Origin: Candidatus Thioglobus autotrophicus
Lineage (GTDB): Bacteria > Pseudomonadota > Gammaproteobacteria > PS1 > Pseudothioglobaceae
Direction: 5' to 3'
DNA: 64,000 bases
Assembly (NCBI RefSeq): GCF_001293165.1
Contig: NZ_CP010552.1
Coordinates: 1,178,001 to 1,242,000 of the forward strand
Part shown: one piece after another, positions 29,625 through 31,710 of the stretch
How the letters are laid out: the number at the start of each line of letters is the position of its first letter
Numbering within the stretch: the stretch's first letter is position 1
Made by a program: the position numbers and the translations under genes
The notes under the pieces: generated by a model
The model's database searches: none
Seen by the model: only the letters and a program-made list of their open reading frames with translations
What the model was told of the DNA's origin: nothing

Positions 29625-29651
29625 TTTTTCTCCTTTAAGAAACTTAAAAAA

Positions 29652-29724
29652 ATGAGCGTCGTTCTAGTGATTCTGATTGCCAAGCCTGATTGAAAAAAAT
29701 TCAACGCAACGCTCCTTGGCGGTT
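29652..29724 (-). ncRNA. SAH riboswitch in the ahcY leader
   Basis: Read on the minus strand the leader contains CCAAGGAGCGTTGCG, a GTTGAA/TTCAAT hairpin, CAGGCTTGG and, further on, CGACGCTCA. These are the conserved blocks of the SAH aptamer. CCAAG pairs with CTTGG (P1), and GAGCGTTG pairs with CGACGCTC to form the pseudoknot. The class is an ON switch that raises expression of SAH-recycling genes when SAH accumulates; ahcY 28 bases downstream is the classical target. The last pseudoknot strand ends about 11 bases before the ribosome site. Confidence 0.9.
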
Positions 29725-29750: not shown

Positions 29751-30902
29751 TTAGTTTGTTTTCAACAAGTGAGTGCGATCGGTTTTTTCCCAGGTAATGT
29801 CATCTTCTGTACGACCAAAATGACCATAACTTGCTGTTTTTTGGTAGATTGGACGCTTAAGATCAAGCATAGCGATTAGACCTTTTGGACGTAAGTCAAA
29901 ATGCTCGCGTACGAGTGCCTCGATGGCGTCGTTAGAAATTTTGCCTGTGCCAAAAGTTTCAACACTGATAGAGGTTGGCTCAGCCACGCCAATAGCGTAA
30001 GAGACTTGCACCTCGCACCTATTAGCCAAGCCAGCTGCCACAATATTTTTAGCCACGTAGCGCGTTGCATAAGCCGCAGAACGATCGACTTTTGAAGGGT
30101 CTTTGCCTGAGAATGCGCCGCCGCCATGACGTGCCATGCCGCCATAAGTGTCAACGATGATTTTACGACCAGTAAGGCCTGCGTCACCAACTGGCCCTCC
30201 AATTACAAAATTACCCGTTGGGTTGATGTGAAATTTGGTCGAATCCGTTAGCCATTTACTCGGTAGAACAGGCTTAATAACTTCTTCTAAAACTGCTTCA
30301 CGCAAATCGTCCAAAGAAATATCTGCATCGTGTTGAGTAGAAAGTACCACAGCGTCAATACCAACAATTTTATGATCTTTATAAATACAAGATACTTGTG
30401 ATTTTGCATCAGGGCGCAACCAAGGTAGTGTGCCATTTTTCATGAGTTCGGCTTGTTTGGCCACTAAACGGTGTGCGTATAGAATTGGTGCAGGCATAAG
30501 CACGTCAGTGGCATTACAAGCGTAACCAAACATAAGACCTTGGTCGCCCGCACCTTGTTCGTGATCTGATGACTCATCAACGCCCATGGCAATATCTTGA
30601 GATTGCTCTCCTAATAGGTTTGTAAGGTCGCAAGTGTGGCCATTGAAGCCGTATTCTTCTTTATCGTAGCCAATGCCAATAATGGTGTCGCGTACGATTT
30701 TTTCATAATTAATGGTTGCACCTGTCGTGATTTCACCCGCTAAGACAACATGATTGTCTTTGACGAGGGTTTCAACCGCAACGCGTGAATTTTTGTCTTG
30801 CGCTAGTGCAGCGTCTAAAATAGCATCAGAAATTTGATCGCAAACTTTATCGGGATGTCCTGCCGAAACAGATTCAGAAGTAAATATCATTTTGTTCTCC
30901 AT
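29751..30902 (-). CDS. metK: S-adenosylmethionine synthetase
   Basis: Makes SAM from methionine and ATP. The 383-residue protein has [20 protein letters not shown], the [12 protein letters not shown] nucleotide motif and [19 protein letters not shown], all diagnostic of MetK. The ATG has GGAG in front. It lies directly upstream of ahcY, so synthesis of SAM and removal of its by-product are neighbouring but separately controlled steps. Confidence 0.97.
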
Positions 30903-30911
30903 ATGAACATT

Positions 30912-30937
30912 AAAAAACCCTTGTCAAGAAGGGTTTT
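30912..30937 (-). terminator. Intrinsic terminator in the metK leader
   Basis: On the minus strand AAAACCCTT and AAGGGTTTT form a nine-pair stem around CTTGAC, with the pairing end running into a T tract. It falls between the SAM-II-like element and the metK ribosome site, so it could be the expression platform of that riboswitch. Confidence 0.75.
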
Positions 30938-30952
30938 CAATGAAGAATAACG

Positions 30953-31015
30953 CCTGCTTTAGCTTGATTTAACTACTCTGGGTAGTGACGCTAGCAATCG
31001 GGACAAATCAGCGTG
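30953..31015 (-). ncRNA. SAM-II-like riboswitch in the metK leader
   Basis: On the minus strand the order is ACGCTGATTTGTCCCGATTG, then CTAGCGT, a small hairpin ACTAC-CCAGA-GTAGT, then AAATCAAGCTAAAGCAGG. ACGCT pairs with AGCGT (P1) and TGATTT in the loop pairs with AAATCA downstream, giving an H-type pseudoknot. The loop and the GCTAAA-AGG tail match the SAM-II consensus as I know it; the extra hairpin is an insertion in the connecting loop. SAM-V shares this core and is the alternative. It would turn metK off when SAM is high. Confidence 0.78.
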
Positions 31016-31044
31016 TATGAAAATATTATAACAAATAAAAAGGT

Positions 31045-31710
31045 TTATTCCAAACTTATTTTTAAGGCGATGGCGCTCACAAAGGGCGCACTCATTAAAC
31101 TGAGTACTAGAAATAGGGCTAGGAAATACAGCTGACTGCTAATATCTAGACCAAATTGCGCTTGGGAAACGGCGCTTGAGGCAAAGATTAAAATAGGAAT
31201 ATAAAGTGGCAAAATAAGTAAAGATAATAGCATGCCAGAGTTTTTAATACCGACAATCAAAGAAGCGCCAATACTGCCGATTAAACTCAAACTTGGGGTG
31301 GCGAGTAATAAAGTGATCATTAATACCTTAATACCTTCATCATCGAGAAATAAAAATACTCCTAATAAAGGTGATAATAAAATAATAGGAATGCCGGTTA
31401 ATAACCAATGGGCGGTAATTTTTGACAGGATGAGTAGTGGCAGGGAGTGATGCGAAGTCACCATCTGCTCCAAGACGCCATTTTCAAAATCGTGATGAAA
31501 TAGCGCGTTAAGCGACAACAGTACAGCCAGCATGCTAGCCACCCAAATAATGCCAGCCGCAATTTGAGATAAAGTCTCGGCTTCTGGGCTAATAGCGAGC
31601 GGGAAGAGTGAGACAGAAATTATAAAAAATAACAAAGGATTAAGAACACTAGAGGGGTTTCTAAGAGCTATGCGCAGGTCTCGGCTTAATGTTTGCAGGT
31701 AAATATTCAT
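31045..31710 (-). CDS. ccmB: Heme exporter permease CcmB
   Basis: Membrane subunit of the CcmAB(C) ABC system for cytochrome c maturation. About 221 residues with six helices; the start MNIYLQTLSRDLRIALRNPSSVLNP is typical. I use the ATG at 31710 because it overlaps the ccmA stop as ATGA; the longer ORF reads back into ccmA. The rest of the ccm genes (ccmC-ccmI) are not in the window, so the ccm set is split. Confidence 0.93.
   Translation of the reverse strand: MNIYLQTLSRDLRIALRNPSSVLNPLLFFIISVSLFPLAISPEAETLSQIAAGIIWVASMLAVLLSLNALFHHDFENGVLEQMVTSHHSLPLLILSKITAHWLLTGIPIILLSPLLGVFLFLDDEGIKVLMITLLLATPSLSLIGSIGASLIVGIKNSGMLLSLLILPLYIPILIFASSAVSQAQFGLDISSQLYFLALFLVLSLMSAPFVSAIALKISLE

Follow-up and report, generated by a model that had tools for sequence, protein, structure and literature searches.

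A SAM-II-type riboswitch with an inserted hairpin in the metK leader of Candidatus Thioglobus autotrophicus and its relatives

The DNA analysed here (the window) is a stretch of 64,000 nucleotides from the complete 1,512,449-bp genome of Candidatus Thioglobus autotrophicus. On its reverse strand metK, the gene for S-adenosylmethionine synthetase, is preceded by a leader RNA (Table 1) that is flanked, on the other side from metK, by a gene whose translation marks it as ccmB-like. The open reading frame list puts the metK start at an ATG at 30902, but this codon shares bases with the Shine-Dalgarno GGAGAA, and the start in relatives corresponds to 30890. A promoter lies upstream of the leader, and a TATAAT box was located 5' of P1 in every one of the 60 family leaders, mostly 6-11 nt off; the metK transcript probably starts a few bases 5' of the aptamer. 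An Rfam scan also identified an SAH riboswitch between metK and ahcY (29647-29723, reverse strand, 42.6 bits), giving a row of SAM-II-type switch, metK, SAH switch and ahcY.

Table 1. Features of the metK locus in window coordinates; z-values are for segments picked after inspection.
Feature	Position	Strand	Remarks
Promoter	31025-31053	-	TTGGAA (31053-31048), 17-nt spacer, TATAAT (31030-31025), TG preceding
metK leader RNA	30888-31017	-	SAM-II-type aptamer, inserted hairpin and predicted terminator
P1 5' strand, ACGC	31011-31014	-	Helix 99.3% paired
Third strand of P2 triplex, TGATTTG	31004-31010	-	Role taken from SAM-II/SAM-V structures
P2 pseudoknot 5' strand, CCGATTGC	30994-31001	-	A20-C24 invariant (73 aligned sequences)
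P1 3' strand, GCGT	30988-30991	-	
Inserted hairpin P3, ACTAC-CCAGA-GTAGT	30972-30986	-	z -3.65
Aptamer 3' tail, GCTAAAGCAGG (P2 3' strand and antiterminator 5' strand)	30953-30963	-	GCTAAAG invariant
Predicted antiterminator hairpin, tail and GTTATTC with GAAAACCCTTCTT	30926-30960	-	-6.7 kcal/mol, z -2.36
Anti-Shine-Dalgarno strand, TTCTTCAT	30940-30947	-	
Predicted intrinsic terminator, GAAAACCCTTCTTGACAAGGGTTTTTT	30912-30938	-	-10.1 kcal/mol, z -2.65
Shine-Dalgarno region, ATGGAGAA	30895-30902	-	Helix enclosing terminator, z -2.66
metK, S-adenosylmethionine synthetase, regulated gene	29751-30890	-	Start taken as ATG 30890

The spread of the leader was determined by fetching and reading 60 metK leaders of the family, all 60 of which have metK downstream. 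The elements of the SAM-II-like aptamer that a preliminary description of the window had placed before metK recur in these leaders, and that assignment is upheld. When the family was searched at the DNA level with a loose cut-off (E <= 1), 82 of 83 genomes had a match, and a covariance model built from the 60 leaders (R1) found a copy in 74 of the 83, with a second, weak match in two of these. Among the nine R1-negative genomes, five had no metK match, G048 had no readable metK start, and G001, G061 and G013 contained metK with no recognisable aptamer in its leader. The MetK protein of G013 is just 61% identical. The leader from G001 (L285) keeps AATTGC and GCTAAAATAGG with no recognisable P1, and is perhaps a decayed copy of the aptamer.

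P1 is a helix of four base pairs, with a possible extra U-A pair in the window. It was 99.3% paired among 72 distinct sequences, and two of its pairs were changed on both sides, with examples such as C-G replaced by U-A in L287 and A-U by G-C in L202 (a single sequence each). The core that forms the ligand site in SAM-II (UGAUUU, AUUGC and GCUAAA) showed little or no variation among 73 aligned sequences, including T8 and A10-T13 of the third strand, which did not vary at all. P2 was 97.8% paired in the 72 distinct sequences; its core pairs never vary, which is conservation and not covariation. The lower part of P2 consists of two G-C pairs followed by a two-nucleotide linker, and slid versions of the structure lost pairing support in P1, P2 and P3. 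The pseudoknot is the canonical P2 of SAM-II, GAUUGC with GCUAAA. A different pseudoknot, TGATTT with AAATCA, had been proposed at first; it can be drawn in the window, but it showed no covariation, 49 of 59 sequences break one of its pairs, and it was rejected. The comparison among relatives suggested in the preliminary description gave a divided answer, with covariation in P1 and in the extra stem, failure of the pseudoknot as drawn, and conservation of the correct one.

All columns aligned to the residues reported to contact SAM in SAM-II (PMC11508383) were invariant in the family (73 sequences, in our own alignment). This invariance, together with the identity of the gene as metK, argues against a leader that has kept the SAM-II fold for a changed ligand, such as SAH or another SAM relative. 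Such a change has a precedent in another class, the spermidine-sensing SAM-I variants (PMC10853860), but is highly unlikely here.

The stem-loop inserted between P1 and the tail (ACTAC/GTAGT), recognised in the preliminary description and named P3 here, was borne out by folding and by covariation. In the window it folded better than dinucleotide shuffles (z -3.65, for a segment picked after inspection), and among 72 distinct sequences it was 96.3% paired, and each of its five counted pairs showed changes on both sides. When forms of P3 were sought elsewhere in the class, the matches outside the family looked like chance. A similar insertion was seen at only one of the inspected loci outside the family, in Kangiella spongicola (L200), where a SAM-II-like core before a membrane protein gene has ACTCT/AGAGT at the P3 position.

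An Rfam scan of the leader found no family at threshold, but RF01726 (SAM-II long loop) aligned on the exact spot with 13.1 bits, where the gathering score is 44, and it recurred at the same place in relatives with 19-28 bits (family best 27.9). None of the four family genomes in the class sample, this one included, was matched by RF00521, and RF01826 (SAM-V) was absent among matches to E 10 for the window leader and 20 relatives. Since these membership tests were mixed, we refer to the leader as a superfamily variant and not as a member of RF00521, RF01726 or RF01826. The preliminary description had named two results that would count against it, the lack of a covariance-model hit and the lack of conserved pseudoknot pairs; formally both were obtained, for the Rfam thresholds and for the pseudoknot as drawn, whereas the correct pseudoknot has conserved pairs. 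The sub-threshold scores would also suit an ordinary attenuator or terminator that resembles SAM-II by chance, a reading made barely credible by the exact SAM-II core conserved throughout the family, the covariation in P1 and P3, and the metK context.

RF01726 (Weinberg 2010), whose listing covers Bacteroidetes and marine samples, shares with the family leader the core GAUUUG..GAUUGC..GCUAAAGCAG and a long insertion that separates the tail from P1. It differs in its scores (13-28 bits against 44) and in the covarying hairpin that the insertion contains here, although this comparison was made by model alignment and RF01726 members may have hairpins too. SAM-II proper (SAM_alpha, RF00521) shares P1, the P2 pseudoknot, the third strand and a terminator platform, whereas P3, inserted in the family leader, is said to be absent from SAM-II (PMC6061858). 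The hairpin lies at the position of P3 in SAM-V, between P1 and the tail (PMC6061858), and to that extent the earlier naming of SAM-V as the main alternative was well placed; P3 would then mark a gammaproteobacterial form of SAM-V under translational control. However, RF01826 was unreported in the leader searches, though the same Rfam library detects it in L201. The lower P2 has the short SAM-II form with its linker, while that of SAM-V is longer and abuts P1. A terminator is present, and the Shine-Dalgarno lies approximately 50 nt downstream instead of within P2a. Assignment to SAM-V is thus very unlikely.

The preliminary description considered both a SAM-II switch in a gammaproteobacterium and its transcriptional platform to be unusual, which overstated the case. 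SAM_alpha-type SAM-II leaders were found in 117 of 369 sampled gammaproteobacterial genomes (E <= 0.001), 30 of them over the Rfam cut-off, Coxiella was among the species of the 2005 SAM-II description (PMC1273637), and a terminator is usual for SAM-II. What stands out is P3, known otherwise from SAM-V, and the platform, in which the 3' tail would form an antiterminator with the left arm of the terminator and the neighbouring UUCUUC would switch between this antiterminator and a block of the Shine-Dalgarno. Several of the gammaproteobacterial SAM_alpha-type leaders that were inspected (L248-L267 and others) precede a metZ-like gene, named by translation, and some precede metK; these are without P3. 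In L201, a Pelagibacteraceae contig, a SAM-II core lies near a match to SAM-V (53.9 bits), as in the known tandem. No described SAM riboswitch of SUP05 or Thioglobus was recognised among the papers listed by an open-access library.

The intrinsic terminator reported after the aptamer was confirmed by direct folding in a model without pseudoknots, as a hairpin followed by six U whose fold in the window beats dinucleotide shuffles (z -2.65; this segment, like those of the antiterminator and the Shine-Dalgarno helix, was picked after inspection). A terminator scanner gave no site in the window where direct folding shows the hairpin, probably because the stem runs into the U-run; a strict terminator search found a terminator in 41 of 60 leaders. 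When only the part of the leader as far as the terminator loop was folded, the tail of the aptamer and the GUUNUUC that follows it paired with GAAAACCCNCUUU, which constitutes an antiterminator, and an equivalent hairpin was obtained in 59 of 60 leaders, with a mean z of -1.65. The tail-to-arm duplex alone was no better than shuffles in the window's own genus, but the full hairpin was better. Partial covariation was observed between the tail and the terminator arm (summed p 0.0065 with anchored windows, not corrected for descent), and this permutation gives weaker support than a biased first test whose windows maximised pairing. Counts were not drawn from a MAFFT alignment of the platform, which misregisters the repeats. 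Antiterminator and terminator are predicted mainly from folding.

UUCUUC can also pair with the Shine-Dalgarno region, a complementarity that tracks across leaders: own pairs gave -8.46 kcal/mol against -7.25 kcal/mol for swapped pairs, and 0 of 5000 permutations were as good (not corrected for descent). Covariation in the sequences supports this helix as well as P1 and P3, and invariance supports the aptamer core and P2. In folding calculations the mean probability of an open Shine-Dalgarno was 0.42 with the antiterminator enforced and 0.09 with the tail masked, and openness was higher in the antiterminator state in 59 of 69 leaders. The terminated OFF state was thermodynamically favoured by a mean of 3.4 kcal/mol (folding without the pseudoknot), and switching must therefore be kinetic, taking place during transcription. 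Because the aptamer tail is also a strand of P2, SAM binding and antitermination should be mutually exclusive.

These results indicate that the metK leader is very probably an OFF riboswitch that senses SAM and belongs to the SAM-II/SAM-V superfamily, with a SAM-II-type core, P3 and a double-lock platform. It is a real, conserved riboswitch of a known kind and a new variant, which by analogy would bind SAM and switch. When SAM is low, the tail (AAAGCAGG) and the following GUUAUUC would pair with GAAAACCCUUCUU to form the antiterminator, which would occupy both the left arm of the terminator and the anti-Shine-Dalgarno strand, so that metK could be transcribed and translated. With SAM bound, the tail would be held in P2 and the terminator could form, and in transcripts that are read through under these conditions UUCUUCAU would pair with the Shine-Dalgarno region. 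At high levels of its product metK would probably be shut off twice, by the end of transcription and by a hidden ribosome-binding site. We infer SAM as the ligand, the direction of control, the order of events and the effect on metK from what is known of the riboswitch family, in which OFF control with terminators is an established mode of SAM-II (PMC1273637; PMC9373788).

It is possible, if less probable, that the same aptamer acts through transcription termination only, and that the complementarity of UUCUUC to the Shine-Dalgarno is that of a pyrimidine-rich antiterminator strand to an ordinary purine-rich site, with no regulatory role. Purine richness is common to all Shine-Dalgarno sequences, and even swapped pairs reach the energy given above. 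However, own pairs beat all 5000 permutations, matched pairs such as UUUUCCUU with AAGGAAAA (L064) and UUCUUCAU with AUGGAGAA (window) occur, and the Shine-Dalgarno block is retained in leaders without a recognisable terminator. Such leaders are L080, L087 and L091, from one genus, with L215 of the same kind, and likewise L160, L205 and L238, from the same genus or its kin. They keep a strand able to pair with the tail or with the Shine-Dalgarno, and control in them appears, from these predicted pairings, to have become translational.

Returning to the double-lock platform, termination and Shine-Dalgarno control both occur among the SAM-II switches of Sinorhizobium meliloti metZ and metA (PMC9373788). 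There the two predicted modes are split between two genes, and no riboswitch-driven antiterminator is predicted for the metA terminator (PMC9373788), whereas in the family leader one platform before metK appears to hold both. On balance we favour the view that the Thioglobaceae have a separate structural subclass, with a SAM-II core and a SAM-V-like P3, in which one platform locks metK twice, by a terminator and a Shine-Dalgarno block that a single antiterminator releases, and in which one branch appears to have lost the terminator and become purely translational. The family would then be a natural series in which a switch moves from transcription termination to a translation block with its aptamer unchanged. 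A metK switch missed by the standard RNA library, in which a single RNA unites traits of two classes of SAM riboswitch, would point to how SAM synthesis is controlled in this marine sulfur bacterium of the SUP05 clade and in the abundant ocean bacteria and deep-sea symbionts of its group. The second switch of the locus, the SAH switch, was present in 63 of 83 family genomes, and in L146 and L234 an SAH switch was found close to a metK gene bearing a P3-less SAM-II leader.
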